Position numbers and translations under genes: made by a program | Part shown: positions 26,116 through 40,887 of the stretch, one piece after another | How the letters are laid out: each line of letters begins with the position of its first letter | Position numbering within the stretch: the stretch's first letter is position 1 | From: Pseudomonas sp. NC02 | GTDB lineage: Bacteria; Pseudomonadota; Gammaproteobacteria; Pseudomonadales; Pseudomonadaceae | NCBI RefSeq assembly: GCF_002874965.1 | Contig: NZ_CP025624.1 | Location: 2,728,001 to 2,792,000, forward strand | Reading direction: 5' to 3' | Length of the DNA: 64,000 nucleotides | Notes under the pieces: generated by a model | What the model was told of the DNA's origin: nothing | The model's database searches: none | Seen by the model: only the letters and a program-made list of their open reading frames with translations

Positions 26116-27168
26116 TCAGCGACTTGCCTCGGTACGCCACAGCACAGGCCAATGAACCTGCTCCAGCCCCATGCAGGTGTTCATTTCAGCCGCATGCGTC
26201 AGCGTGAAACCGTTACCGTCGTAGCGCCAGCGCAGCGCAGTGCCACAACCGCCCATGCCCATCGCCATTGCCTGGCTGCTCAGCTCACCCGTGGCCGGAT
26301 CAAAATCGACCAGGCCGTTGGGCTCTCTTTCCGGCAGATTTGGCACTTCGGCGACCCGTGCTGGGCGCGCCTGCTCAGGGTGGTCCAGGGGCGCCTGGTA
26401 GATATTGTAGAAACAGTTGTATGCCCCACAGCCGGTTTCGATGATCACCAGCGCTTGATCTGCACTCAAGGCATAGGCGTTAGCCTTTGGCGCAACGCCT
26501 TCATTCAGATCCGCTTGCCACTCCTTGCGCGTGGCCGCCACCACGGCATCCGCGACTTCTTTTGCCCTGTCCGGGGTTAGCGCAACGGGTGCCTGCCAAC
26601 TCGGTGCCGGCGGTGCGGCCGGTGCTTGCGGCACGCTGCTGGCGGGCGCCTGCCCCTTGGAAATCAGTGCGTCCTGTGTACCAACGCGCCCCTGGACCGA
26701 GTCGATCAGCAAAAGCGCCGCGCTCATCCCGTTTAGCGAGGCGACGGAGGTACCGCCCTCAATGGGTAAAATCAACTCCCGCCCGTTGCGCAACTCTGCA
26801 ATCAAGGCGTCGGCATTCGTTCCGGTCAGAGCAAACACCTCAGATACCTCACCTTTTTTGAGTTCGCCAGGCTCGAATCGATTTTTCAGCGGCTTGCCAT
26901 CGAGTGTTGGCTGACCCTGGGGGGCGGTGTAGCTGAACACGCCTACCCGCAAGTCTCCATGTGGGCCGGCTTCACGGGTTACCCGCAGGCTGAACGTCGA
27001 GATACCGATATCGTCACGCTCCGGGACGGCACCGATAGCCGTGCAGGCACGCGTGTTATCACAGCCGACAATCCAGTCCTTGATCGAACGCTCCAAAGGG
27101 ACATTATCGGCGGCGTTCGCACTGGTAACTGCAGCAGCCATCAGGAATATGAGGGGGAGTCGGGTCAT
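26116..27168 (-). CDS. DUF1176-family secreted protein
   Basis: 350 residues from the ATG at 27168 (MTRLPLIFLM); the longer frame adds 18 unlikely residues. The signal peptide is followed by 'KDWIVGCDNTRACTAIG', the N-terminal signature of DUF1176 proteins. Conserved cysteine pairs are visible at 'GCDNTRACT', 'GCGAYNCF' and 'GGCGTALRW', suggesting periplasmic disulfides. A Pro/Ala-rich linker lies near residues 185-205. The family occurs widely in proteobacteria, with no established function. No operon partner is evident. Confidence 0.8.
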   Translation of the reverse strand: MTRLPLIFLMAAAVTSANAADNVPLERSIKDWIVGCDNTRACTAIGAVPERDDIGISTFSLRVTREAGPHGDLRVGVFSYTAPQGQPTLDGKPLKNRFEPGELKKGEVSEVFALTGTNADALIAELRNGRELILPIEGGTSVASLNGMSAALLLIDSVQGRVGTQDALISKGQAPASSVPQAPAAPPAPSWQAPVALTPDRAKEVADAVVAATRKEWQADLNEGVAPKANAYALSADQALVIIETGCGAYNCFYNIYQAPLDHPEQARPARVAEVPNLPEREPNGLVDFDPATGELSSQAMAMGMGGCGTALRWRYDGNGFTLTHAAEMNTCMGLEQVHWPVLWRTEASR

Positions 27169-27331
27169 CAAACAGGTGCCTGTAGACTGGAAAAACGCTA
27201 TTAGGGCAGGGTTCTTTGCCAATACCTATTGCATGGCCGTCAGGCACAACAGAAACCCCGGCTGGAACAATCGGTACGGTGTTCCAGCCAGCGCCTGAAC
27301 GTGGGATGTCGCCAGTCCAGTGCGCTGCACA

Positions 27332-28093
27332 TCAGGGTGACTTTGCGCCGTTGCGCCCCTCAATGCTGCGCACCAACGCCCCAAAAAGCTCACCCCGCGG
27401 CATCTTGCTCAAGGGAATATTCGCCTTCTCGAACCACTCCCGATCCGCCTCAGGGTGCGGGCCACTCAGCACCACGACCCCGTTTTCATAGGTGTAACGC
27501 GCTGCCGCCACATCACCATTCCGGTAGGTCGCAATGGTTGAAGAAGGCGAGGTCGCGTCAGGCTTGGGGAAGTAAGGCCCATCCTGATAAAAGACGCTAT
27601 CGGCTTTCCCATCCCACACAACCTGCACCGCCGCGTCCGCAATGCCCGCGACCTCAAACCCAGGCCTGCCCGCCTCTGAATCAAGGTCGTAGGGTATCAG
27701 GCCAAAGTTGCTGTCGTCGGCCAGATAAGCACCCATACAAAGCCCCAGGTAGCGCCCACCCTGGGCGACAAAGTCACGAATGGCCTGCACCCGCGCATCC
27801 CCCAAACTATCAAGCGCCGCAGGGATGTCCTGACCGCCACCAGGTTGAACGTAGAGGTCATAACGAGCGAGGCTTTGCGGCGTGATGTCGATCGATTCAT
27901 CGGCACCTACAAAGTCAATCTGCGCATTCGGGCGGACGCGCAGCAGGGCTGTTTTGACATTCTCTGAACATCCCTCGCAGCCCGCCGGGCCTCGGTAGAT
28001 AGCGACATGGGCGATGGGGGGCGCGGCGTGCACTGAGGAAGGAAGCAGTGTGAAAAACGCAAAGAGCGTCGCGGCGATGGCGTGCAGATTCAT
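27332..28093 (-). CDS. Secreted BPL_N-domain glutamine-amidotransferase-like protein
   Basis: 253 residues with a signal peptide (1-23, 'LLPSSVHAAP'). The fold is of the class I amidotransferase/DJ-1 type. 'VAIYRGPAGCEGCSENV' is an early strand, 'DLYVQPGGGQDI' a glycine loop, and 'GRYLGLCMGAYLA' a nucleophile elbow with Cys119. This matches the domain named for the N-terminus of biotin-protein ligase. A histidine/glutamate partner may be in 'VVLSGPHPEAD'. The substrate is unknown, and the periplasmic location is unusual for amidotransferases. It is divergent from the broken gene at 28,427. Confidence 0.8.
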   Translation of the reverse strand: MNLHAIAATLFAFFTLLPSSVHAAPPIAHVAIYRGPAGCEGCSENVKTALLRVRPNAQIDFVGADESIDITPQSLARYDLYVQPGGGQDIPAALDSLGDARVQAIRDFVAQGGRYLGLCMGAYLADDSNFGLIPYDLDSEAGRPGFEVAGIADAAVQVVWDGKADSVFYQDGPYFPKPDATSPSSTIATYRNGDVAAARYTYENGVVVLSGPHPEADREWFEKANIPLSKMPRGELFGALVRSIEGRNGAKSP

Positions 28094-28426
28094 GGTTGTA
28101 GAGTCGTCTTAGAGCTGATTGGGTCCGATCGGACTTTGTGATTCGAAGCCTAAAGCCAATAGGCAGTTGAAGGAGTTAACATTTGTAAATCGGCTAGGAA
28201 AAATTGGGGTTGATGATCGCAACGACGGTTTTCCCATTCACATTTATGGGTTTTCCTTTAGTGCATAAATATCGAAGAGAGCGTTTCTTCCATTTTCAAT
28301 CCCCGGAATTTTTCAGGCCGTTTGAGTCAGCTCTCGGCCATGCGCGAATGCTATCGGCCAATAGCACACACTCAAGTATCGACTATGCTTGGAGCGATTC
28401 AGCCCTGTACCTGAAGGATCTAAACA
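28094..28426. other. Divergent intergenic region
   Basis: 333 bases between the BPL_N gene (minus) and the gene at 28,427 (plus). It is AT-rich near 28,130-28,270. At 28,331-28,368 it holds two short 'TCGGCCA' palindromes that resemble the dispersed repeat described elsewhere. A plus-strand frame at 28,204 runs through it but has no ribosome-binding site and is judged spurious. Confidence 0.5.
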
Positions 28427-29159
28427 ATGGGGTACCTTGTCGTTGCTCACGCGATGAATGTGAAGCCGGAGTTAGAACCACTTTCTACGTTGCCGGTGAG
28501 CATTGGTTGGTCATTGCACCAGGATGAAAACGCCACGTCGTTCTACTTAGACACGTTCAAGGCTGGCGAAGAACGGAAATGGCCCTTTACGTCTATGCCA
28601 CCCATTAAGGATGTACCACTTGAGCTCCCTCAAGAATTGGCAGCGCTATCGCGGATATACAAAGTGCTTAAGGATGCTCAGCTAGCCGACTACTTCCAAG
28701 AGAGCTTTCCTGAATGTGAATTTAGCGCTGAGTAAAAGCCTTCAATTACACGTTTGCAGCTTTTGCACAGATGACGAAGGGCTGGATTTTGTGTGTGTAT
28801 CGTCGAATGGTGAACTGCAAAGGCTGCGTTGCGTTTGCGGTGATCTGGATATCACCTACGAGCTTGGCACGGTCATGATCCAGCCGCTTCTGATAGATGG
28901 GGTTGAAGGCACCGACGCAAGTGGTCTGCATGACCCAGAGAACGGCATTCACGTCTTGAGTCGGAATATAACGCCCTCATCGTTACTGCATGCGGTGGCT
29001 TCAGCAGAAACCACTCGCTTTCTACAAACAGAAAGCCCCCCTCTGGGTCTAGGTAGCTTCGATGGTCTGGACGTCGCACCGGTAAAGATTGCTGGCTCTA
29101 AGATCGCCTCGCTGAAGCCTGAGGTGGTTGCTCAGAAAGCGTGGTGGAGGCGGTGGTAG
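28427..29159 (+). pseudogene. Hypothetical gene split by a probable one-base frameshift
   Basis: Two frames, 28427-28735 (102 residues) and 28716-29159 (147 residues), overlap by 20 bases. Both look coding. The first starts well (GAAGGA before ATG) and ends 'DYFQESFPECEFSAE'. The second begins inside that end and continues 'ALSKSLQLHVCSFCTDDEGLDFV'. Removing one T near 28,712 joins them as '..ESFPEVNLALSKSLQ..', giving one protein of about 244 residues. No family could be named. The alternative is two genuinely overlapping genes. Confidence 0.55.
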
Positions 29160-29270
29160 TTGTATCGACGACTTCGACCCAAGCCAGGAGGTTTTCCGGG
29201 GAAAAGTAGCCAATTATCAGCATCGAAAAATTGGGGCCGATAACGGGGGGCAATTTTCAAAAAGCTACCC

Positions 29271-29303
29271 GTCACGATGGGCTGCAATCGGCCAAAAGCT
29301 GAC
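29271..29303 (+). repeat. Dispersed GGCC-core intergenic repeat, copy A
   Basis: Reads GTCACGATGGGCTGCAATCG followed by GCCAAAAGCTGACC. It is the best intact example in this window of a ~33-base imperfect palindrome centred on TCGGCCAA. Confidence 0.7.
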
Positions 29304-29353
29304 CTTCGAACAATATTCAAGGGCACCATAAATCAGAAAAAAGAGTAGCGGAC

Positions 29354-29830
29354 ATGAAAAAGGAATTTACCCTTCGGACTGCACTGCCAGGAGATGGCCT
29401 AGCTATTTTCCATGTCACTCGGCAGTCAATAACCGAGCTGTCGAACGGACTCTATACCCCAGAGCAACTCAATGGCTGGATGGGCGAAAGAACCCCAGAG
29501 TTTTATGAGCAACTGATAAAGCAAGGGCAAATGGTCGTGGCGCTGCATCTGGGAAGGATCGTTGGATTTGTGGATTCAGAGCCAGGAGAAGTGACACGGC
29601 TTTTTCTTCTTCTCGAGGCCTCCAGTAAGGGGCTCGGTGCTCATTTGCTCAAGACAGGTATTGATAATGCGCGTGGGCCTGGCATCCGCGTCATAAAGGT
29701 AGAGTCGACTTTGAATGCTGAAGGCTTCTATAAAAAACATGGCTTTGTGACACAAAAGCACGGTTTTTTCAGCCATGGTGTGGGTGGGCAACCCATAGAA
29801 ATCATTCACATGGAACTTGAGTTGGAGTGA
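29354..29830 (+). CDS. GNAT-family N-acetyltransferase
   Basis: 158 residues. The GNAT pattern is clear: N-terminal 'LRTALPGDGLAIFHV', strand 4 'VVALHLGRIVGFVDSEPGEVTRLFLLLEASSKGLGAHLLKTGID' with the acetyl-CoA loop in its degenerate form 'SSKGLGAHLL', and C-terminal 'NAEGFYKKHGF'. It transfers an acetyl group from acetyl-CoA to an unidentified amine. It lies between a dispersed repeat and the left end of the IS1182 element. Codon use is more AT-rich than in the core genes, suggesting acquired DNA. Confidence 0.85.
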   Translation: MKKEFTLRTALPGDGLAIFHVTRQSITELSNGLYTPEQLNGWMGERTPEFYEQLIKQGQMVVALHLGRIVGFVDSEPGEVTRLFLLLEASSKGLGAHLLKTGIDNARGPGIRVIKVESTLNAEGFYKKHGFVTQKHGFFSHGVGGQPIEIIHMELELE

Positions 29831-29908
29831 TTTATTCTGCATACCTCCACGGGCGCTTGGAGGAATTTGATTCACTGACGAAAGTCAGCTTTGGGTCGAA
29901 ATCTGCCG

Positions 29909-29931
29909 GTCATGAAGGGCAGCAGTCGGCC
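29909..29931 (+). repeat. Dispersed repeat, left half, interrupted by IS1182
   Basis: The left half GTCATGAAGGGCAGCAGTCG-GCC ends exactly at the IS terminal repeat. Its missing right half (ATTAGCGGTCG) is found at 36,105, beyond the second mobile unit. Confidence 0.7.
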
Positions 29932-31586
29932 CAGAGTGTGTAAAAACGCTCAAGGCCTCATCGTCTTGGATCATTGACGTTCGTGGCTGAACGATCGCAT
30001 GGCAAATGCTGCGTATTGCATCAGTCGCGACCTGGAACACTTCAACGCTGTTTTTACAGCCTCTGGGATGGGCCAAAATCAGCTTTTTATGCCGATAGCG
30101 CCTTCATCAAACCGTGAGCACCGATGATTTTCATGACTCGTTTCATGTTGTAGGCGAGCACATTTAAACTCATCTCCGCGCCCACCCCGGCCAGCTTTCG
30201 CGTCAGGAAGTGCGTCGCACCCATCCATTGTTTGAGCGTCCCGAAGGGATGCTCAACCGTCCGCTTTCGGACTCGCATCATCTCCGGTGCTTTGCTCAGC
30301 CGAAGCTGCATCTCCTCCAATACGGCTTCATGCTCCCAGCGTCGAACACCGCCGGTGTGTGCTCGGTGTGCACTGCGGCTTCATTGCGCAGCCCCGGCAT
30401 TTCGAACTCCAGTAACGGTGCAACGTCAGGCCTTTTTCAACGTTGGTATAGCGCCAGATCAGCGCCTCTCCAGCCGGGCAAATGTATTCGTTTTTTGCCG
30501 CGTCATAGATGAAGGCATCGTTATTGAAACGCCCGTCTGCCTTGGCTCCAGAGGTCATCGGCTTGGGCACATAGGCGGTGATACCTGCATCGTGACAAGC
30601 CAGGATTTGTTCGCTTTTGAAGTAACCTCGGTCAGCCACTACCGACAACGTATCTGACGCCATCGCCTCGCGGGCCTGCTTGGCCATTGAGCTGAGTTGA
30701 TCCCGGTCGGAACCGACGTTGGTCACCTCATGTGCAACGATCAAATGGTGCTGAGTATCGACCGCTGTCTGCACGTTGTAGCCGACGATTCCTGTGCCGC
30801 GCGTCATCATGGAACGGGCGTCTGGATCGGTCAGTGAGACCTGTTTATCCGGCGATTCATTGAGCTGGATTTCGATCGCTTGAAGCTCCTTCATTTGAGT
30901 TTTGAGCTTGGCGATTTCCTCTTCCAGCCGCCCGGCACTGGGCTCGGAAGCTATGGGTTCTTGCCGCTCGGCAGCATCGAGTGCCGCTAGGTAACGGTTG
31001 ATACTCGATTCAATTTCTTCCATGCGCCGCTTCAGTTTGGCGTTGGTGAAATTGCGGTCGCGGTTGTTGGCTGCTTTGAATTTACTGCCATCAATGGCGA
31101 CCAGATGTTCTCCGAACAGCCCCAATTGCTGACATAGCACAACGAACTGGCGACAGACGCCTCTGATGGCCTTGCTGTTGTCTTTTCGGAAGTTGGCGAT
31201 GGTCTTGAAGTCCGGCATCAAACGCCCGGTCAACCACATCAGTTCGACGTTGCGCTGGGCTTCTCGCTCCAAACGTCGGCTCGACTGGATGCGGTTGAGA
31301 TAGCCGTAGATGTAGATCTTCAGCAGGATCGCGGGGTGGTAAGCCGGCCGGCCAGTATCAGCTGGAATGGCACCTTCAAAACCCAGATTGACCAGGTCGA
31401 GTTCGTCGACGAAGACGTCGACTACCCGCACCGGATTGGTATCGCTGACGTAGTCGTCGAGGCTCTCGGGAAGTAAGGTGCCTTGGCCTCGATGTCACCT
31501 TGGATAAAGCGCTTCATGGGCGATCCCTGCGATGAAATCCTCAGAAATCATAGCAAGAGTTCGCGAAGGCGTTTTTACACACTCTG
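29932..31586 (-). mobile_element. IS1182-family insertion sequence with frameshifted transposase
   Basis: 1,655 bases bounded by exact 18-bp inverted repeats CAGAGTGTGTAAAAACGC (29932-29949) and its complement (31569-31586). Both ends are flanked by GGCC (29928-29931 and 31587-31590), which may be a 4-bp target duplication. It contains one transposase gene on the minus strand. Length, single ORF and insertion into a palindrome fit the IS1182 family. Confidence 0.85.
30087..31517 (-). pseudogene. IS1182-family transposase with two compensating frameshifts
   Basis: The gene should start at the ATG at 31517 (MKRFIQG). One base is missing near 31,495, which moves the reading frame into the long body 31,431-30,328 (DDE domain: 'LVAIDGSKFKAANNRDRNFT', 'GYNVQTAVDTQHHLIVAHEVTN', 'VVADRGYFKSEQI', CxxC region 'CRGCAMKPQC'). 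One extra base near 30,337 returns it to the original frame for the last ~77 residues ('RKRTVEHPFGTLKQWMGATHFLTRK'). The total length is exactly 477 codons. The element is therefore probably unable to move itself unless sequencing errors explain both shifts. Confidence 0.85.
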
Positions 31587-31685
31587 GGCCGAGACTGTGT
31601 AAAAAGGCTTCCATCGTACTTAGATCTGCAGCGTTAAATCTTCCAACCTTAATCAGTCACAGGAGCGTTCGTGGCTGGGTTTATC

Positions 31686-31925
31686 CTAATTATCTTGTGA
31701 GGAAAGTAATGGAGGCTCTTCAACGTGCTCCCATTCCAAATACCACTCGTATGTTTCGTTGTCAGCCTTGAATTCATGTTTAACAGTCCTGCCAAGTCTC
31801 ACTAGCTTTCGAGCCATGTGAGAGGAATGTGTCTTAGTCATTCTCGGCGCTTTCATAAATGTCATCGTGTGTATGATTGCTGGAGATTTTGACGCAGGAA
31901 CTGCCTGATGAAATGCTTCATTCAA
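31686..31925 (-). CDS. Small hypothetical ORF inside the passenger unit
   Basis: Up to 79 residues from a TTG; an internal ATG would give about 59. The C-terminal half ('TVKHEFKADNETYEWYLEWEHVE') looks protein-like, but there is no clear ribosome-binding site and no recognised family. The rest of 31,609-32,091 shows nothing further. It may be a remnant. Confidence 0.3.
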   Translation of the reverse strand: MNEAFHQAVPASKSPAIIHTMTFMKAPRMTKTHSSHMARKLVRLGRTVKHEFKADNETYEWYLEWEHVEEPPLLSSQDN

Positions 31926-32091
31926 GGCGAATATCGCGTCAAAGCGGACAAGATCCTGAAATGTTGGTTGTTCGATAATGCGTGTTGGAAAGTCAGCTTA
32001 CTGATCGTGCCATAGGCCAGTGGAGCGTAGTCGTCTACTCTCCCTGGCCACCATCGACGGGTGTTCTGGCAGTTGAATGGCGCAGGCGTCT

Positions 32092-34491
32092 TCAGAACTG
32101 GTACTTGAGCCCCACCATCACGTTGCGCGGATCACCGCTGTAGTAGCTGTTGTAGAGGCCGTAGCCTGTGTAGTACTCGCGATCAAAGATGTTATTGAAA
32201 TTAAGCGAGGCACTCAGGTGCTTATCGATGTCATAACGTGCCAACAAACCGACCACGGCAAAACTACCCTCCTTGGCCTCCGATTCCAGTGACTCGTTGA
32301 CGAAGTATGTCTTGCCCTGCCAGATAACGTTGCCGCCAACCGTCAGGTCCTTGAGCGCACCGTTGAGCTTGTAGGTGCTTGCCAGCTTGAACTGGCGCTC
32401 AGGGCGCTGGGAGTCGATACGGTTGTGCTGCTCATCACGCGGCTGGGAATAGGTGAACCCGGTCAGTACCTGCCAGCCCGGCAATACTTCGCCGGAGGCC
32501 TGCAACTCAAAGCCCTTGGTGGTATTGGTCACACCCTCGTAAGCATCACGACCGTCGTCGGTGCTGCCTACGTACTGCGCAAAGTTGTCCTGCTTGGTCT
32601 TGAACACCGCGATGCTGGTGTTCAATGCACCGCCGTAGAACTCGGACTTGAGGCCAGCCTCGTAGTTCTTGCCGGCCATGGGTTCCAAGACTTTGCCGCT
32701 GATATCGATGTTGCTTTGCGGTTCAAAAATGTCGGTATAGCTGACATAGACCGAATGCTGCTCAGTCAGGTCATAGACCACGCCAGCGTAGGGGATGACC
32801 TTGCCGGTTTTCTTGGCATCATCATGGTCAGGGTTGGCCGGGTCAGAGTTATAACCCAGCTCGCCTTCGCGCTTGTAGTTGACGACGCGGCTACCTAGGA
32901 TAACGGACAGATCGTCCGTAGGTTTGAGGCGCACCGCGCCAAAAGCGCCGACTTCCTTGATGTGATAATCCTGGGAGCTCCAGGTTACGTAGGACGTAGG
33001 GCGAGGCGCATTATTGCCCCAGTTGTCAAAGTCCACGCTCAGGCGCGCAGAGGTTGCATCGGCATTTTGCGAGAAGTAATCCGAGCGGCGGTCGCTGACA
33101 TTAAGCCCCAGGATCAAGTCGTGGGTGCGACCGAGCAAGGAGAACGGCCCGGTGGAATAAGCATCCACCGAATCGGTGTTGATGACATAGGTCTTGTGGC
33201 TACGGAACAACTGGGCTTGACGGGTCGTTTGGTCTGGGTAAGGGCCCCAACCGATCAGGTTGCCTTGCAGTTGCTCGGTGTCGCCTTTCCAGTGGCTGGC
33301 TTCGACACGCAGCATCCAGTCATTGTCGAAATGATGCTCGACACCGCCAAAGTACTTGGTGCTTTCACTGTCGGCATAGGCCCATCTGGCCGCCGGGTTT
33401 TTCGAGCGGGAAAAATCGGTACGCGTGCCATCGGCGTAAAACAACGGCAACTGGCCAAAGCTGGAACCGTTGGAGTTGATCTTTTGATAGTCGATACCGC
33501 CATACACCATGGTGTTGTCGCTGATGTCGGCTTCACCGATGGCGTAGAACACGTTTTTCTTCGACGAGTAGTAATCGATGAAGGAGTTGGAGTCGTCGTA
33601 CGCCGCGACGACCCGACCCCGCACTGCGCCGTTTTGCGTGAGGGGCCCGGACAGGTCCATCTCAGTGCGATAGCGATCCCAGCTACCGCCACTGCCAGAC
33701 ACGTACCCCTGGAATTCCGTGGTAGGACGCTTGCGCACTAAGTTGACCACGCCCGCCGGGCTGCCGACGCCGCTCATCAATCCAGTGGCGCCGCGTACGA
33801 CCTCCACTCGGTCATAGCTGGCCATGTCCCGCACACCCAGGCCGTTGGTGTTAGTGGTGAAATCTGAAGTAGGCACGCCGTCGTACTGGAAGCTATTCAG
33901 CGCGAAACCACGGGAATAGAAGTTGAAGCGCTCGCTGTCGTCATGCATCACCGACACACCGGGGGTCTGCCCCAATACATCAGAGATTGTGCCCAAGCTC
34001 TGATCAGTCATTTGTTGGCGAGTGATCACCGTCACTGATTGTGGTGTTTGGCGCAGGGTAAGCGGCAACTTGGTTGCCGTACTCGTCGCGCCCGTAGTGT
34101 AGGACCCGGAGTTCTCCGTCGTCACACCCAGCGCGTGCCCCTGAATCGTGGTTGCGCCTAAGTTGAGCGCGTCATCGCTGGCGGATGGGGCGATCAAATA
34201 ACTGCCGTCGTCGACCTTCTGCACCTGCAGGCCGCTTTGGCCGATCAGGCTTTGCAGGGCCTGCTCCACGGTCATCTGGCTGTGCAGCGCCGGGGCTTGC
34301 CGGCCCTCGGCGATATCCGTGGCGAACAGCACATGGCTGCCGGTTTGTTGCGCCAGCGCATTGAGGGACTTATCCAGCGCTTGCGCGGGAATATCCAAGC
34401 GGTAGGTGGCGGATTGCGCATTGGCGGCCCCCGCCAGTAACAGGCTGGAAGCCAGTAATGCCAGACGTTGCACTCGCGTGTTCTTACCCAT
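32092..34491 (-). CDS. TonB-dependent siderophore receptor with signalling domain (FpvA/FecA-like)
   Basis: 799 residues. A signal peptide (1-25) is followed by a secretin/TonB N-terminal signalling domain (about 29-105: 'YRLDIPAQALDKSLNALAQQTG', 'GLQVQKVDDGSYLI'), the mark of receptors that signal to a FecR/FecI pair. The plug ('LRQTPQSVTVITRQQM', 'VEVVRGATGLMSGVGSPAGVVNLVRKRPT') and the barrel ending in 'MVGLKYQF' follow. It imports a ferric siderophore, probably a hydroxamate or xenosiderophore; the ligand cannot be read from sequence. It is transcribed from the fecI promoter or its own, 91 bases after fecR. Confidence 0.92.
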   Translation of the reverse strand: MGKNTRVQRLALLASSLLLAGAANAQSATYRLDIPAQALDKSLNALAQQTGSHVLFATDIAEGRQAPALHSQMTVEQALQSLIGQSGLQVQKVDDGSYLIAPSASDDALNLGATTIQGHALGVTTENSGSYTTGATSTATKLPLTLRQTPQSVTVITRQQMTDQSLGTISDVLGQTPGVSVMHDDSERFNFYSRGFALNSFQYDGVPTSDFTTNTNGLGVRDMASYDRVEVVRGATGLMSGVGSPAGVVNLVRKRPTTEFQGYVSGSGGSWDRYRTEMDLSGPLTQNGAVRGRVVAAYDDSNSFIDYYSSKKNVFYAIGEADISDNTMVYGGIDYQKINSNGSSFGQLPLFYADGTRTDFSRSKNPAARWAYADSESTKYFGGVEHHFDNDWMLRVEASHWKGDTEQLQGNLIGWGPYPDQTTRQAQLFRSHKTYVINTDSVDAYSTGPFSLLGRTHDLILGLNVSDRRSDYFSQNADATSARLSVDFDNWGNNAPRPTSYVTWSSQDYHIKEVGAFGAVRLKPTDDLSVILGSRVVNYKREGELGYNSDPANPDHDDAKKTGKVIPYAGVVYDLTEQHSVYVSYTDIFEPQSNIDISGKVLEPMAGKNYEAGLKSEFYGGALNTSIAVFKTKQDNFAQYVGSTDDGRDAYEGVTNTTKGFELQASGEVLPGWQVLTGFTYSQPRDEQHNRIDSQRPERQFKLASTYKLNGALKDLTVGGNVIWQGKTYFVNESLESEAKEGSFAVVGLLARYDIDKHLSASLNFNNIFDREYYTGYGLYNSYYSGDPRNVMVGLKYQF

Positions 34492-34582
34492 TGTGATCCC
34501 CAGTGATGAAAGTGCTCTCTATGGGCAATGGCGTATGACGCTGTAGGAATCTTGATGTCGTGTTGAAAATAATTCTTGTCTG

Positions 34583-35422
34583 TTAGCGAGTCTTGTTAAG
34601 AATCACGCGGCCATCGGCGGTACGTATCAGGCTCACCGGTAGAATCCGCGGCAGCATTTCGATCAGTGTCTCGACGCTTTTGCTGTCGAACTCCCCCGAC
34701 AGGCGCAGTTCACCGGTGGCTGTATTGGCCACTTTAATACGCTGCTCGCGGTACTGCTGAAGGTCGCGCACGACCTCACTCAGTGGCGTACCGTCGAAGC
34801 GCAACTTACCCTGCTGCCAGGCCGTCAGCGCCTCGCGGCTTGCCGGTGCCACCGTGCCGACCCCTTCAGCGGTGGCACGCACCTGCTCGCCCGCCTTCAG
34901 CAGGCGTGGCGCGGTGTGGTCATTGTTGACCTCGACACTGCCCTCGATCACACCCACATCCACCCCACGCTCATCGCTGCGTAGATTGAATATTGTGCCT
35001 ATGTCCCGCACTCGTACGCCCTGGCTACGCACAATAAACGGCGAATCGCCATGTACCACGGTGAACATCGCTTCGCCGTTCAGCAATTCCAATTGACGGC
35101 TGCGCAGGCGTTTTTCGATACGCAGATGAGCGCCGGAATTGAGCATCGCCAAGCTACCATCCTGCAAACGAACTTCCTGACGTTGGCCGATGGCGACCTG
35201 CACATCCTCCGTCTGCCAGGCCGGATCCAACTGCCACAAGCCACCTGCCAGCGCCAGGACCAACAATCCGGCACCCAGGGATTTCTGTTTGCTGCGGCGG
35301 CTTTTGGTGAAGGCTTTACCTTCGGCCAGCAAGGTTTCCTTGGACGGCACGCGCTCACGCAAAGCGTCCGCGAACGGCTGCAGCAGATCGTTTTTGGGGT
35401 CACGGGAAGGCGAGGAATTCAT
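34583..35422 (-). CDS. fecR: FecR-family anti-sigma factor
   Basis: 279 residues from the ATG at 35422, which overlaps the sigma-factor stop (ATGA). One membrane segment lies near residues 47-66 ('LGAGLLVLALAGGLWQL'). The N-terminal cytoplasmic part is short and lacks the usual conserved 'W..' DUF4880-like start, but the periplasmic FecR domain is clear ('GQRQEVRLQDGSLAMLNSGA', 'GEAMFTVVHGDSPFIVRSQGVRVRDIGTIFNLR'), with the C-terminal secretin-like domain that contacts the receptor. It passes the substrate-bound receptor signal to the sigma factor. Confidence 0.9.
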   Translation of the reverse strand: MNSSPSRDPKNDLLQPFADALRERVPSKETLLAEGKAFTKSRRSKQKSLGAGLLVLALAGGLWQLDPAWQTEDVQVAIGQRQEVRLQDGSLAMLNSGAHLRIEKRLRSRQLELLNGEAMFTVVHGDSPFIVRSQGVRVRDIGTIFNLRSDERGVDVGVIEGSVEVNNDHTAPRLLKAGEQVRATAEGVGTVAPASREALTAWQQGKLRFDGTPLSEVVRDLQQYREQRIKVANTATGELRLSGEFDSKSVETLIEMLPRILPVSLIRTADGRVILNKTR

Positions 35423-35943
35423 GGGTTTTTCCGAAGGGCTCGGCGCGCCGGCTCCCAATGCTGACCGATGGTCTTCATGGCCCGCCCGAAATGCTGGGTC
35501 ACCATGTTCACCGAAATTCCCAGCTCCTCTGCGATCTCCCGTTGCGACATGTCATGGATGCGATGCAGCAGGAATACCTGCCGCTGACGCACGGGCAACG
35601 CCTGGATGATGTCTAGCAACGCCGCCAGCTGCTGCTCGAAATCCAGCGCCTGGGCGCCGTCCCAATCGTCGACGCTCAGGTGCTCGGGCACATGGCCATT
35701 TAAATGAGCCTGCCGCGTACGCTCGGCGCGAATACGGTCGATGGCGCGGTTGAACGCCGTTTTACGCAGGAACGCCAAAGGCGTGGCGATGGGGTCGCGG
35801 GGTGGTTTCTCCAGCATCTGCACGCACACTTCATGCATCAAGTCGCGTGCGAAGTCTCGGCCGTGGAAGCGACGCTTGATGTAGTCAACTAGGTCGTCGT
35901 AATGGAGAGCCAGGGCGGCCATCAGGGGGTGATGTGTGGGCAT
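35419..35943 (-). CDS. fecI: FecI-type ECF sigma factor
   Basis: 174 residues. Region 2 ('VDYIKRRFHGRDFARDLMHEVCVQMLE', 'LAFLRKTAFNRAIDRIRAER') and region 4 ('LPVRQRQVFLLHRIHDMSQREIAEELGISVNMVTQHFGRAMKTIGQHW') are typical of iron-starvation ECF sigma factors. It should activate the receptor gene when the siderophore is bound. First gene of the three-gene unit. A Fur-like palindrome lies 18 bases upstream of the start, so it is probably repressed when iron is plentiful. Confidence 0.92.
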   Translation of the reverse strand: MPTHHPLMAALALHYDDLVDYIKRRFHGRDFARDLMHEVCVQMLEKPPRDPIATPLAFLRKTAFNRAIDRIRAERTRQAHLNGHVPEHLSVDDWDGAQALDFEQQLAALLDIIQALPVRQRQVFLLHRIHDMSQREIAEELGISVNMVTQHFGRAMKTIGQHWEPARRALRKNP

Positions 35944-35960
35944 TCCGAGAACTGGCGTTT

Positions 35961-35977
35961 ATGAGAATAGATCTCAT
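35961..35977 (-). promoter_or_regulatory. Putative Fur box upstream of fecI
   Basis: ATGAGA-ATAGA-TCTCAT is an inverted repeat in an AT-rich context ('TTTATGAGAATAGATCTCAT'), close to the Pseudomonas Fur consensus (GATAATGATAATCATTATC-type). It ends 18 bases before the fecI ATG. Confidence 0.65.
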
Positions 35978-36082
35978 CATAAAGGGTTGAGGGGGAGATA
36001 GCGAGGGGGAGTTCAAGGCTACTGCTGACGTGCCGATAAATTTCAGATTTAACGTAGAAGCGCACACTTCAATTTTGGCGAA

Positions 36083-36100
36083 GCGTTTTTACACACTCTG
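36083..36100. repeat. Solo IS1182 terminal inverted repeat
   Basis: GCGTTTTTACACACTCTG is identical to the right end of the IS at 31,569-31,586. The match extends inward through GCGAAG except for one extra G there. It is followed by GGCC and then the right half of a dispersed repeat. Confidence 0.85.
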
Positions 36101-36182
36101 GGCCATTAGCGGTCGATCACGCCCAGCAGCTATTGGCCGATTTCTGCCTTTCGTGACAAGCAGCAATCGGCCAATAGCGGTG
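36101..36182. repeat. Cluster of dispersed GGCC-core repeats
   Basis: Right half-copy GGCCATTAGCGGTCG at 36,101-36,115 (completes the half at 29,909), then an inverted copy at 36,122-36,156 and a direct copy at 36,151-36,181 (TCGTGACAAGCAGCAATCGG then CCAATAGCGG). The last two overlap at the shared GTGAC. Confidence 0.65.
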
Positions 36183-36219
36183 CCTCCGTCCAGAACCAGT
36201 TTCCACCCTTAGCAGTCAC

Positions 36220-37758
36220 TCAAGCCGACCACTTTTTCTTATTCGCCTTATCTCTACCTTGTAAATTTGCTCGAGTCCGAAGCTCTTTAACCTCCCGAAT
36301 CACCGTGCCAAGAATGCCGATCCCTTCATGAATCTGCTGCGTTGTCAGGCCGGCATAGCCCAAAATGAGTCCTGCCGATCGCTCGTATTCTACCGACGCT
36401 GGTTCGGCAAACAGCGGCGAAAGCGGATATACGCCAACCCCGCGTTCGAGCGCTATCGCCTGCAACGTCGGCTCATCCTGAGCGCGAAGCGCGGGTAGCG
36501 TTAATACGCCGTGTAAGCCCGCCGCCATGCCGGCCAGTTGCCCATATTCCGCCAGATGCTGTTCAAAAGCCTCCAGTAATGCCCTTCGCCGCAGTTCATT
36601 TTCCCGCCGCAGGCGGCGAACGTGACGCTCATAGGTTCCACTTTCGATCAATGAGGCGAGCACGTTTTGCTCCCAGCGCGGTGAGTGTCGATCGGTCAGC
36701 CGTTTGGCTTCACGGAAAACGTGAACCAACTCGCGTGGAAGAACCAGATAACCCAACCTGAGTTGCGGTGAGAGTGCCTTGGAGAACGTTCCGACATAAA
36801 TGACGCGAGCATCTGCGTCCATGGATTGCAGTGCGTCGATGGGCCGCTGGCCATAGCGAAACTCGCCGCCGTAATCGTCCTCAATGATCCACGCGCGATG
36901 TCGCCTCGCCCAACTCAGCAGTTCGAGGCGACGTGCGACAGGAAGCACCGCCCCCATGGGAAACTGGTGAGACGGAGTGACAAAGGCCAGGCGCACGCGA
37001 TCACCTTCCGGCAGAGCACTGGTATCCAGTCCAGAGGCATCGACGGGTATGGGCAACGCCGTCGCGCCCGTGGCCTCAAAGCAATATCTGGCCATGCGGT
37101 AGCCAGGCTCTTCGAAGACGAATGCATCTTGCGGGTTCAGCAAAAGCCGGGCGCACAGGTCAAGTCCTTGCTGCGAGCCATGCACTACGAGTATTTGATC
37201 CGCATCGCACGCCAGACCGCGTGCGCGTCGCAGATAACCTTGCAGCGCATTGCGCAAGCGCTCTTCCCCTTCGGGGTGGCCGTAAGCGAGGCTCGGTTGA
37301 CGCTTGACTAGTTCGGAACGGTAGGCGCGCTGCCAACCCAGCGCCGGAAAATCCCTGGTAGCGACTGAGCCGTACCTGAAATCGATGCGGGCTTGGGGTG
37401 ACGCCATGTTGTACGGCTTCATGATGGCCACTCGTTGCCCGTAAAGGGAAAGCACTGGCGGCAGTTCCTTTTGCTGCGCCGAGTCCCCTTGGGCATGCCC
37501 GGATTGAGTGCTGATTATGCTCGCTACCGTGGCGGCCTTGCCCACTGATGTCAGGACAAAGCCTTCGGCCGCCAGTTGCTCGTAAGCCGCCGTTACAGTG
37601 GTTCGCGACACGCCGAGTTCGGCCGCGATTGCCCGCGTCGACATGAGCCTCGTGCCGGCGGCAAGCGTGCCGTCTTCTATCTGCGCGCGCAGCCTGGCAT
37701 AGATCCGACGTTGCGCGCCGCGGGAAAATGCATCCGGATTGGCTGAAAACTGGCCCAT
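36220..37758 (-). CDS. MocR-type regulator (GntR helix-turn-helix fused to aminotransferase)
   Basis: 512 residues from the ATG at 37758 (MGQFSANPDAFSRG), preceded by GAGG; the frame extends 67 implausible residues further. Residues 12-80 form a winged helix of the GntR type ('IYARLRAQIEDGTLAAGTRLMSTRAIAAELGVSRTTVTAAYEQLAAEGF'). The rest is a fold-type I aminotransferase with PLP lysine K327 in 'YVGTFSKALSPQLRLG' and 'IIEDDYGGEFRY'. It starts 82 bases from the divergent paiB-like gene, its likely target. The effector is unknown. Confidence 0.9.
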   Translation of the reverse strand: MGQFSANPDAFSRGAQRRIYARLRAQIEDGTLAAGTRLMSTRAIAAELGVSRTTVTAAYEQLAAEGFVLTSVGKAATVASIISTQSGHAQGDSAQQKELPPVLSLYGQRVAIMKPYNMASPQARIDFRYGSVATRDFPALGWQRAYRSELVKRQPSLAYGHPEGEERLRNALQGYLRRARGLACDADQILVVHGSQQGLDLCARLLLNPQDAFVFEEPGYRMARYCFEATGATALPIPVDASGLDTSALPEGDRVRLAFVTPSHQFPMGAVLPVARRLELLSWARRHRAWIIEDDYGGEFRYGQRPIDALQSMDADARVIYVGTFSKALSPQLRLGYLVLPRELVHVFREAKRLTDRHSPRWEQNVLASLIESGTYERHVRRLRRENELRRRALLEAFEQHLAEYGQLAGMAAGLHGVLTLPALRAQDEPTLQAIALERGVGVYPLSPLFAEPASVEYERSAGLILGYAGLTTQQIHEGIGILGTVIREVKELRTRANLQGRDKANKKKWSA

Positions 37759-37840
37759 GGAAAAACCTCGAAACTGGCACTTTCGATGATGCAGATCGTG
37801 GTCGACATTATGGACTCCCAACAATCCGTAGTGAAATCCC

Positions 37841-38503
37841 ATGTACATTCCCGAACACTTCGCAGAGCACCGCCCGGAACAGTTGCACCGAATTATCCGC
37901 GACAATCCGCTGGGCATCCTCGTTACTGAGGGTGAATCCGGCATGGATGCGGACCACATTCCCTTTGAACTCGATACCGGCCACGGAACATACGGGTTGC
38001 TGACCGCTCATGTGGCCCGCGCCAATCCTGTGTGGCAACGTTGCGCCGGCGGCACGCCTGTCATGGTGATCTTCAGGGGGGCAGAAGGCTACATTTCGCC
38101 CAACTGGTATGCGTCCAAACACGAAACGCATCGCCAGGTTCCCACATGGAACTACGAGGTGGTGCATGTGCATGGCGTCATGCGCGTGATGTCGGAAGAA
38201 AAGCTCCTGCGCCGCACCCTGGCCCAGCTGACTCGCCACCAGGAGTCCAAGGAGATCAAGCCCTGGAAGATGGGCGATGCGCCGCGTGAATATCTGGACG
38301 AGATGGTGTCGAGAGTTGTCGGTATCGAGATCGAAATGCAGTGCGTTGAATGCAAGCGCAAGCTCAATCAAAACAAGTCGCACGCTGATCGCTTGTCTGC
38401 GATCGCGCACTTGCGCGAGCGCGGGCACGTTGAGCTTTCTTCGATAATGCTGGCCAACCTTGAGCAGCCGGATCAGGGGGCAGCACCGTGGACCTTGAGT
38501 TGA
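37841..38503 (+). CDS. PaiB-like FMN-binding negative regulator
   Basis: 220 residues. The family signature is clear throughout: start 'MYIPEHFAE', 'GTYGLLTAHVARANPVWQ', 'VMVIFRGAEGYISPNWYASK', 'VPTWNYEVVHVHG', and the C-terminal 'KLNQNKSHADR'. It has a split-barrel flavin-binding fold; in Bacillus PaiB acts as a transcriptional repressor, while its role in Pseudomonas is less certain. Its 3' end overlaps the exporter gene by 16 bases, so the two are one operon, probably controlled by the divergent MocR regulator. Confidence 0.9.
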   Translation: MYIPEHFAEHRPEQLHRIIRDNPLGILVTEGESGMDADHIPFELDTGHGTYGLLTAHVARANPVWQRCAGGTPVMVIFRGAEGYISPNWYASKHETHRQVPTWNYEVVHVHGVMRVMSEEKLLRRTLAQLTRHQESKEIKPWKMGDAPREYLDEMVSRVVGIEIEMQCVECKRKLNQNKSHADRLSAIAHLRERGHVELSSIMLANLEQPDQGAAPWTLS

Positions 38504-39252
38504 CCACCACCACGATTCTGGTGACCTTCGCCGGAGTTTTTTTGATCTGCTTTATGAAAGGTGCCTTCGGTGGAGGCTTCTCCATTGTCGGCATTCCGCT
38601 GCTGTCGCTGGTGATGGATCCGCTCACAGCCGGCGGACTGCTAGCGCCGTTGTTTATCGCGATGGACCTGTTCGGCCTGCGTTACTGGAAGCCATCCACT
38701 TGGTCTAAACCCGACTTGGTGCTGTTGTTACCAGGTCTGATTGTCGGCATCGGTGTCGGCTATCTACTCTTTCGCGTCATGGATCACCGCGCAGTCGCGT
38801 TAGTGATGGCGGCGGTTACCCTGATTTTTGTCGGCCTCTGGTTCAAAACCGGTGGGGAAATCAGGGTCAGCCAGCGCTCATCGCTCAAGGCGGTGTCCGC
38901 AGGCGTCACCTCTGGGATCACGACTATGGTCGCGCATTCTGGTGGGCCACCATTAGCGATGTACCTGTTGCCGCTCGGTCTAAGCAAGAAAACCTATGCC
39001 GGCACCACCAGCATGTTCTTTACCGTAGGCAATCTGCTCAAGGCAGTGCCTTGGCTGCTGTTAGCCAGGCCCACCGGTAACGTGCTAAGCCTGATGGTCA
39101 TCTGCCTGTTAGCAGTTCCAAGTGGTGTCTGGCTGGGCTGGCGACTGCACACCAAGCTGGATCAACGCCAGATGTACCTTGCCTGCTACTGCCTGCTCGT
39201 AGTCACGGCGGTAAAACTTCTGTGGGACGGCATAAGTGGCTATATCGTCTGA
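38488..39252 (+). CDS. TauE/SafE-family anion exporter
   Basis: 254 residues from a GTG at 38488 inside the end of the PaiB-like gene. About eight hydrophobic segments. The family motif 'FMKGAFGGGFSIVGIPLLSLVMDP' is near residue 20, and its internal repeat 'GVTSGITTMVAHSGGPPLAMYLLPLG' is near residue 135. Such proteins move sulfite, sulfonates or other organic anions across the inner membrane. The actual substrate here is unknown; the PaiB/MocR neighbours suggest an amino-compound link, which is weak. Confidence 0.88.
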   Translation: MDLELTTTTILVTFAGVFLICFMKGAFGGGFSIVGIPLLSLVMDPLTAGGLLAPLFIAMDLFGLRYWKPSTWSKPDLVLLLPGLIVGIGVGYLLFRVMDHRAVALVMAAVTLIFVGLWFKTGGEIRVSQRSSLKAVSAGVTSGITTMVAHSGGPPLAMYLLPLGLSKKTYAGTTSMFFTVGNLLKAVPWLLLARPTGNVLSLMVICLLAVPSGVWLGWRLHTKLDQRQMYLACYCLLVVTAVKLLWDGISGYIV

Positions 39253-39393
39253 AAATGCCTCACCACTATGAGGCCCAACGTTACGGCCATTATCCGACTG
39301 GCTGCCAACGGAATGTTAGCAGTCAGAGGCCGTTCAAATGGCCTGTGACACTAGGATGCTCTGCTCGGCTAGGCGTGCTTCATCGAGCTAAAA

Positions 39394-39612
39394 TTAGCGC
39401 TTGAGGACTTCGTCAGGGTAGTAACCGAGCATCTGAACTGGACGCAGATACTCAGACGGCGCTCCGAGCAATTTAATCGAGCTGCTTAGAGTGACGAAGT
39501 TGAGATTGAGCGGCGGCGTAATATCACCGGCATTGCGTGCCGTCGCTTGAGCCTCATCGAGTGCCTCGGAGATGCTGTTGATTGCAGCTCCGGAACACTC
39601 CGAGGAAGGCAT
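39394..39612 (-). CDS. Short hypothetical ORF, possibly a gene fragment
   Basis: 72 residues from the ATG at 39612. 'GAPSEYLRPVQMLGYYPDEVLKR' at the end has a protein-like composition, but no family was recognised and there is no strong ribosome-binding site. The flanking stretches, 39,253-39,393 and 39,613-39,687, show no other feature. It may be the tail of a decayed gene. Confidence 0.3.
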   Translation of the reverse strand: MPSSECSGAAINSISEALDEAQATARNAGDITPPLNLNFVTLSSSIKLLGAPSEYLRPVQMLGYYPDEVLKR

Positions 39613-39687
39613 CACACAGCATTTGTGTGAACTGGCTTGCCTGCATTTTGGCTGAGCCGAATTCGGACTAAGCGGCAGTAAAACCGA

Positions 39688-40887
39688 TCAGGGCTTGGAC
39701 AAGCTCCTGAACCCAGCTTGGCCACCCACCTTAACAACCAACCAGGCCAGCAGCACCAATCCCAAGGTTGCCCAGGGGATCGATCCCACGCCTGTCGTCT
39801 CAAGCAGTACACCGCCCACTACGGCACTGCCCGCAAACGCGAGGTTCAGCACGGTCACCAGCATCGACTGAGCCACATCGGCACCGTCGGCAGCAGCATT
39901 CGCCAAAGCTGTCTGTAGCAGGGCCGGTGCACCGCTGTAACTCAGGCCCCAGGCAGCCATCGCCACATAAACCGCTATGGCAGGCAAGCCACCCAACGCC
40001 AATGCAAGCGATACCAGCGCAAACCCGGCCAGGCTCAACAGCACCAACCGCCGCAGCCAGCGGTCAATCAATAGCCCAGTGAGCCAGATACCCACGAGAG
40101 CCGCAATGCCGAACGCAAGCAATGCCTGCTCGACCTGTCCATCCAACCCGACCGATGCCAGGAATGCCGCAATATAGGTGTAGAGCATGTAATGAGCCAT
40201 GATCCACAGCATAACTACCGTCAGCACCGGTCGCACGCCTGGCCTGCAAAAAACGTGACCCAGGGACAAGCGCTGGCCAGCCCGTTGCCCGGCAAAGTCA
40301 GGGACATTCAGCCGAATCCAAACCATCAGCGCCAGGCTCAACGCCGCTAGCAGCCCGAACACATTGCGCCAACCGATCTGTTCACCCAGCCAGACACTCA
40401 GTGGTACGCCCAGCGCCAAGGCGACGGGGATACCCAGCATAGCCACTGCCATCGCGCGGCCTTGCAAGGGCGCGGCGACCATGCGTCGCGCATAACCGGC
40501 CAACAGGCTCCACGCCACACCAGTGGCGACCCCGACGATCAGGCGCGCGACCAGGGTGAGGGCAAAATACGGCGACAAGGCAGTTACCGCGTTGCACAAA
40601 CAGAACACCCCCACTGTCAGTAATAACACAAGGCGCCGTGGCCAACCTTGCAAGGCCAAGGTCAAGGGAACGGCCGCCAGCCCGGAACCGAGGGCACACG
40701 CGGTGACCCATTGCCCCGCCCATGCCTGGGAAACCTCAAACGTGTCGGAGATGTGTGGCAACAGGCCGGCGGGTACGCTCTCGTTGGCAGTGGCGATAAA
40801 ACTCGCGGTGGTCAGGGCCAGTAAGCCAGTGATAGGTAGTTCTGAGGACGGCGGGGGGGTGGGTTGAATCGATTCTTCGCGGTTCAT
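39688..40887 (-). CDS. MFS drug/metabolite efflux transporter (DHA1 family)
   Basis: 399 residues with 12 predicted membrane helices. The MFS motif A equivalent is degenerate between helices 2 and 3 ('LQGWPRRLVLLLTVG'). Motif 'RLIVGVATGVAWSLLAGYARRM' marks helix 4, and 'GIPVALALGVPLSVWLGEQIGWRNVF' the antiporter region of helices 5-6. It resembles AraJ/YdhP-like proton-driven exporters. It is divergent from a LysR-type regulator 98 bases away, which probably controls it. Confidence 0.88.
   Translation of the reverse strand: MNREESIQPTPPPSSELPITGLLALTTASFIATANESVPAGLLPHISDTFEVSQAWAGQWVTACALGSGLAAVPLTLALQGWPRRLVLLLTVGVFCLCNAVTALSPYFALTLVARLIVGVATGVAWSLLAGYARRMVAAPLQGRAMAVAMLGIPVALALGVPLSVWLGEQIGWRNVFGLLAALSLALMVWIRLNVPDFAGQRAGQRLSLGHVFCRPGVRPVLTVVMLWIMAHYMLYTYIAAFLASVGLDGQVEQALLAFGIAALVGIWLTGLLIDRWLRRLVLLSLAGFALVSLALALGGLPAIAVYVAMAAWGLSYSGAPALLQTALANAAADGADVAQSMLVTVLNLAFAGSAVVGGVLLETTGVGSIPWATLGLVLLAWLVVKVGGQAGFRSLSKP

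Follow-up and report, generated by a model that had tools for sequence, protein, structure and literature searches.

The locus described here raises the question of whether a siderophore-uptake operon that lies between IS1182-type ends, next to an IS1182 element, reached its position as a passenger of these ends. It was analyzed within a window of 64,000 nucleotides from the chromosome of Pseudomonas sp. NC02, for which a first-pass annotation had proposed that a fecI-fecR-receptor operon is the cargo of a non-autonomous passenger transposon. In the reading that we prefer, to which we assign a probability of about one half, the segment 32092-36012 is a self-regulated operon for uptake of a foreign pyoverdine, gained by horizontal transfer, and the ends and the operon were joined elsewhere and arrived together as a unit resembling a mobile insertion cassette (MIC).

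Layout of the locus

The locus consists of the left flank CAGCAGTC, GGCC (29928-29931), the insertion sequence (IS; 29932-31586), GGCC (31587-31590) and the unit (31591-36100), whose right border is formed by an end at 36083-36100 (18/18), GGCC (36101-36104) and the flank ATTAGCGG. The left end of the unit (31591-31608) matches the IS1182 18-mer in 15 of 18 positions. The succession given by the first-pass annotation (half-repeat, GGCC, IS1182, GGCC, second left end, cargo, right end, GGCC) is borne out base by base. The features are as follows.

29896-29931, no strand: left outer flank, which includes the larger part of a REP-like hairpin (by eye) and terminates in GGCC (29928-29931); homology to the left flank of genome G132 stops at 29899
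29932-31586, no strand: IS1182-family insertion sequence with identical 18-bp ends (CAG/CAG type), single chromosomal copy
30090-31491, minus strand: IS1182 transposase gene with broken frame; its two pieces correspond to residues 10-390 and 391-476 of the transposase at locus L043 (tblastn)
31587-31590, no strand: GGCC separating IS and unit
31591-31945, no strand: left unit end, a 355-bp end piece (GAG-type end) from an IS1182 element other than the neighbouring one, with its upstream small ORF and the first transposase codons (by eye)
31686-31865, minus strand: small ORF (59 aa) in the left IS end, which in L043 is divergently oriented to the transposase; its coordinates were derived by hand from the translation, counterpart L043:5166-5378
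32092-34491, minus strand: TonB-dependent receptor of ferripyoverdine type with its own signalling (STN) domain, 799 aa; Pfam STN, Plug and barrel
34583-35458, minus strand: FecR-type anti-sigma factor (PF04773, PF16344)
35419-35943, minus strand: FecI-type ECF sigma factor (PF08281, PF04542), 89% identical to that of Pseudomonas pisciculturae
35944-36012, minus strand: fecI upstream region, the last stretch homologous to P. pisciculturae, with a Fur-box-like palindrome (by eye)
36022-36100, no strand: right unit end, a 79-bp half (positions 81-159) of a 159-bp MITE with a CAG-type end, 99% identity
36101-36180, no strand: right outer flank with GGCC, the rest of the hairpin arm and a second REP-like hairpin (by eye)

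Within the window, the 18-mer end with up to three mismatches is confined to the four borders, as compared to an expected number of 0.02 sites, and four were reached in none of 100 shuffles; the four ends are thus far above chance. As had been claimed for the unit, its ORFs and Pfam domains include no transposase, of which only the first codons remain at the left end (by eye). A MIC consists of IS-type ends around a cargo without transposase, and both features, inverted ends on either side and no transposase inside, are present here. Only one full IS copy lies beside the cargo and the right end comprises 79 bp, so the two full IS copies of a composite transposon are lacking.

The neighbouring IS1182 copy and the two ends of the unit

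The neighbouring IS belongs to the IS1182 family by its transposase profile, its terminal inverted repeats (18/18) and the 4-bp duplication GGCC on both sides. The profile NF033551 (cut-off 270 bits) matched it in two pieces located in different frames, with 398.9 and 65.3 bits; an intact transposase, as required of an autonomous element, is absent because the frame is broken, and judging from this frame the copy is very likely dead. Its best matches on plasmids are mostly annotated as IS1182, and some as ISPmo1 family. In the 6.89-Mb, single-contig chromosome of the host, IS1182-family DNA is confined to this block, save one weak match to the NF033551 profile at 4.14 Mb (31.7 bits, below the cut-off), and no other copy of the IS, of an IS end or of the MITE was found in it.

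As judged from the alignments, both ends of the unit are genuine and come from two different elements, neither of which is the neighbouring IS. The left 355 bp are 90% identical to L043:5086-5440 and 88% identical to L044:749-1103, and L043:3537-5440 and L044:749-2652 are 1904-bp IS1182 elements of other genomes with an open transposase frame. By this comparison, the left unit end comes from the transposase-proximal side of another IS1182 element, which was cut inside its transposase gene, and it agrees with the end of the neighbouring IS in only 15 of 18 positions because it derives from a different IS1182 element. IS1182 elements of the L043 type carry a divergent small ORF of 70 aa upstream of the transposase (L043:5166-5378), which belongs to no Pfam family; a similar ORF is present at L046:5333-5575, where no IS ends were found. 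The same end piece stands alone in genome G280 (L045:5785-6099), with four mismatches in the end, no GGCC outside it and no transposase match.

The right end had been described as identical to the IS1182 terminus, which holds for all 18 terminal positions but not beyond approximately 30 bp (94% over 31 bp), where 79 bp match the half of a MITE that occurs in the genus instead; its derivation from the neighbouring IS was rejected on this ground. The 79-bp half is the sole match to the MITE in the host chromosome. A MITE match was obtained in all genomes searched for it (20 of 20 and 29 of 29), in G000 by the 79-bp half only, the other 48 having been preselected for the 79-bp piece. One further match, in G349, begins at the same midpoint (positions 80-152, 89%), and the remaining partial copies have other breakpoints. 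The IS elements at L043 and L044 and most MITEs pair a CAG end with a GAG-like end, as does the unit; among the exceptions are L038 and L042, both of whose ends read CAG-like. IS1182-type elements can cluster in any case, since a stretch of about 4 kb in G178 contains four MITE-like copies.

The GGCC target duplication was considered as proof that the unit had transposed and was rejected. In 30 loci, 21 full-length MITE copies were placed and six partial copies were excluded; the 4-bp flanks of the full-length copies were equal in 18 and unequal in three, 35 of the 42 flanks read GGCC, and complementary repeat arms were seen on either side in 13 of the 21 (by eye). The unit likewise has GGCC on both sides, which is expected in about two cases in three even for unrelated insertions. 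Most insertions of this group lie in GGCC within the same repeats, so that equal GGCC flanks and half-repeats that complement each other carry little weight; these signs do not discriminate one insertion from two.

Pairs of MITEs were also found around other genes. At L035:3437-7335, two full inverted MITEs flank a type II-A retron (RT_II-A 394 bits, NDT_II-A 285.6 bits) and a DUF5677 gene, and a defence-type reverse transcriptase (best PADLOC RT 158 bits, RT_UG17 115.2 bits) lies between two MITEs, again inverted, at L036:3561-7990; a 208-bp element made of two ends of the IS type of the window lies flush at one of the latter MITE borders, in the manner of the IS and the unit. At L078:4606-10988, two MITEs with their CAG ends inward flank a 1530-aa DUF4062/WD40 protein, which is NLR-like by eye and has no PADLOC match. 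Paired 79-bp matches in G052, G032 and G005 were considered as long terminal repeats of retron-bearing elements of 2-4 kb, which was rejected as each is a complete 159-bp MITE; five of these six MITEs have equal 4-bp flanks of their own, and the pairs may be independent insertions.

Search for further copies, empty sites and the operon elsewhere

The first-pass annotation had suggested looking for the bracketed unit with the same ends at other loci and for empty sites. The unit was not found a second time in the 398 genomes searched, that of the host among them, nor in plasmids or phages. The searches of the 398 genomes covered one genome per species, with one or two candidate places scored per genome; a second search of the genus (n = 397), apparently of the same sample, adds little. 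The near search of plasmids with the unit yielded only the 79-bp MITE half, in one record, and this half matched two plasmid records when searched alone; in the distant search of plasmids with the whole block, the best 30 of 256 records all match the IS part only. Phages yielded one 71-bp match and no bracketed unit.

No empty site was found either when the right and the left flanks were each searched in the 398 genomes (own included). G175 (95%) and G158 (97%) share the right flank without carrying the operon there, and their junction sequence differs. The fec unit at this same locus without IS1182 ends, which would speak against mobility of the bracket, was thus not encountered in the relatives with the most similar right flanks. 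The left flank is 89% identical in G132, where it comprises an acetyltransferase gene, and the adjoining sequence there is unrelated (L089). This gene, located left of the IS in the window (29354-29830), is patchily distributed, being detected in 6 of 398 genomes at E <= 1e-15, own included. In G175 (L054:6600-10700), the neighbourhood of this locus has undergone rearrangement close to REP-like hairpins, and the blocks corresponding to the left and right flanks are inverted with respect to each other.

The whole operon is carried by P. pisciculturae (NZ_JACVZE010000013, L067), with which the segment 32092-36012 aligns at 78.8%; identities are 84% for the STN domain, 86% for plug and barrel, 78% for FecR and 89% for FecI. 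In the 14.4 kb around this operon, neither 18-bp-type ends (with up to four mismatches) nor flanks shared with the window were found, and the homology to the window extends from the receptor stop codon to a point 9 bp short of the MITE half. Since the P. pisciculturae operon lacks such ends, the receptor design, i.e., this STN domain with this barrel, is probably older than the bracket in the window. A scan of genome contigs found no relative with the single receptor as query and six loci, four of them in Pseudomonas, with an alignment; the full operon is sparsely distributed among the genomes sampled. Taken together, the interpretation as a mobile unit is partly supported: the IS1182-type ends are real, the unit lacks a transposase, the operon is complete, its distribution is sparse and the plug and barrel of its receptor fit the pyoverdine system of another species, but movement as one unit is not backed by a second copy or an empty site.

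Arrival of the operon

We propose that the unit was most likely assembled elsewhere, where the operon came to lie between a truncated IS1182 element and a truncated MITE, that ends and operon would have arrived together as a MIC-like passenger unit, and that the neighbouring IS1182 would have entered the GGCC at the left border later. The complementary GAG and CAG ends could let a transposase of the L043 type act on the unit in trans, since the unit shows the same pairing as the L043 and L044 elements and most MITEs. At present the unit is probably stranded, because the only chromosomal IS1182 transposase above the family cut-off is broken. Joint arrival is favoured over three local insertions most strongly by the fact that essentially no other IS1182-family DNA is present in the chromosome. 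The main weaknesses of this proposal are the lack of a second copy and of an empty site and the P. pisciculturae operon without ends; moreover, two truncations have to be assumed since the unit ends come from different elements, and the clustering of IS1182-type elements, as in G178, likewise counts against it.

Alternatively, the bracket may have been assembled in situ and never have been a transposing unit, a course of events that we find less probable yet credible. The operon would have been acquired by ordinary recombination into a repeat-rich spot, an IS1182 relative and a MITE would have inserted separately on either side of it, and the transposase and inner MITE half would have been lost through internal deletions. 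The P. pisciculturae operon without ends is in line with this, as are the equal or complementary flanks that are common anyway among MITEs (35 of 42 flanks with GGCC, 13 of 21 copies with complementary arms by eye). The locus is indeed a repeat-rich, rearranged spot whose flanks are shuffled among relatives, with the left gene beside unrelated sequence in G132 and mutually inverted blocks in G175. However, both deletions would have had to spare only the outer ends, and IS and MITE would each have had to hit this spot while leaving no other copy in the chromosome.

It is unlikely that the entire segment 29932-36100 moved as one larger element, with the broken IS1182 at its left and the half-MITE end at its right, using the left end of the IS1182 and the lone right end. 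Each of the two outer borders has an exact 18-mer, inverted relative to the other and adjoined by GGCC, and a similar flush arrangement exists at L036:7620-7990 (the 208-bp element, 4 bp and a MITE). In contrast, two features would be left unexplained, the second left end at 31591 and the GGCC that separates it from the IS, and no second copy of such an element was found in the 398 genomes.

The unit might also belong to a family of cargo units moved by a single IS1182-type transposase, on the ground that intact IS elements, 159-bp MITEs and cargo units would share CAG/GAG ends and the GGCC target; retrons, defence reverse transcriptases and NLR-like genes would be the other cargo. We consider this broader view doubtful; if it were true, traits for defence and for iron theft would be exchanged among pseudomonads by one common route.

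The cargo operon and its receptor

Under the preferred reading, in which ends and operon arrived together, the cargo would serve uptake of a foreign pyoverdine. The Pfam domains bear out the earlier description of a complete, regulated operon of sigma factor, anti-sigma factor and receptor: an ECF sigma factor, a FecR-type anti-sigma factor and an STN receptor, the components of FecI/FecR/receptor cell-surface signalling, are encoded in one operon. The Fur-box-like palindrome upstream of fecI (by eye) would tie expression of the operon to iron.

The receptor possesses the STN, plug and barrel domains of the FpvA type and is closest to known ferripyoverdine receptors, which account for its three closest solved structures. 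Its plug and barrel (residues 123-799) are 92%, 91% and 88% identical to those of the receptors of G171, G304 and G338, respectively, whereas its STN domain shares only 33-38% identity with them; for the next group of six receptors, barrel identity is 65-67%. The receptor joins an FpvA-type plug and barrel to an STN domain that accompanies this FecI/FecR pair both here and in P. pisciculturae.

The receptors of G171 and G338 are located between long peptide synthetase genes; a 1057-aa and a further 1128-aa gene of G171 were confirmed as synthetases by Pfam and the others were read by eye. The G171 locus additionally encodes PvdN and a cyclic peptide exporter (TIGR01194, the family that includes PvdE), and the G338 locus encodes PvdO. 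Because of the exporter, PvdN and PvdO, these loci are considered pyoverdine clusters with the receptors in the position of FpvA, which usually lies downstream of the pyoverdine synthetases according to PMC11366639. The G304 receptor has a similar synthetase on one side and an unrelated gene on the other (by eye). No synthetase was recognized by eye among the ORFs of 27000-40000, which indicates that the receptor in the window does not lie within a pyoverdine cluster. The best match in the host to the 1057-aa synthetase of G171, the sole cluster synthetase compared, showed 34% identity over most of its length and up to 40% over shorter pieces; at the former level, the host is considered to lack an ortholog of this enzyme.

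The receptor is best read as a horizontally acquired, predicted receptor for a foreign pyoverdine. The earlier assignment to iron acquisition and xenosiderophore use thereby becomes more specific, in that plug and barrel belong with the pyoverdine system of another species. Following this, we propose that the foreign ferripyoverdine would bind to the receptor barrel, upon which the STN domain would contact and signal to FecR, and FecI, once released, would transcribe the receptor gene. Uptake of a non-pyoverdine siderophore, with the likeness to FpvA a family resemblance only, is the least probable of the alternatives: the best NCBIfam names, FauA (599.8 bits, cut-off 900) and FhuE (516.6 bits, cut-off 666), do fall below their cut-offs and only the general TonB-siderophor subfamily is passed (323.5 bits, cut-off 223.5), but a plug and barrel 92% identical to those of a receptor inside a pyoverdine cluster, as compared to 65-67% barrel identity for the next six, and three ferripyoverdine receptors as the best solved relatives argue against it.

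PMC11366639 describes pyoverdine as a public good and mentions xeno-pyoverdine uptake; receptors for the pyoverdines of others help to decide who can exploit whom. A foreign plug and barrel combined with a different STN domain and its own sigma/anti-sigma pair could function without the pyoverdine regulation of the new host. Receptor repertoires could be renewed more quickly than synthetase clusters if operons of this kind also moved between IS ends. The locus yields concrete, testable predictions on both points.

Comparison with known systems

Like MICs, the unit has inverted ends of an IS family around a cargo devoid of transposase, for which mobilization in trans is expected. It differs from them in that its ends come from two elements, an IS end piece and a half-MITE, and in its iron-uptake cargo, and neither a second copy nor an empty site was seen in 398 genomes. 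Cassettes with qnrD and qnrS2 are published examples of MICs. In PMC3281130, MICs are listed among the non-autonomous elements moved by ISs, and transposable modules (TMo) are described as one IS with adjacent DNA. The locus resembles the latter in that one IS lies beside the cargo; here, however, the IS has a broken transposase and is delimited by two ends of its own together with GGCC.

With FpvA and FpvB, the receptor shares STN, plug and barrel, with up to 92% identity in plug and barrel; contrarily to these ferripyoverdine receptors, it is located outside a pyoverdine cluster, has a different signalling domain and lies beside its own FecI and FecR. The operon is similar to fecIRA of E. 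coli in comprising sigma factor, anti-sigma factor and transducing receptor, but the unit contains no transport genes fecBCDE and its receptor is of the ferripyoverdine type. According to PMC9249621, about 20% of E. coli strains possess fec, in whose region IS elements accumulate. In the literature searched, mainly titles and the openings of abstracts, no transposon-borne pyoverdine receptor was reported. Already known, then, are the MIC class and, from E. coli fec (PMC9249621), iron-uptake genes with IS elements accumulating around them; what is specifically new is that an FpvA-type receptor with a switched signalling domain is accompanied by a sigma pair of its own and lies between IS1182-type ends.
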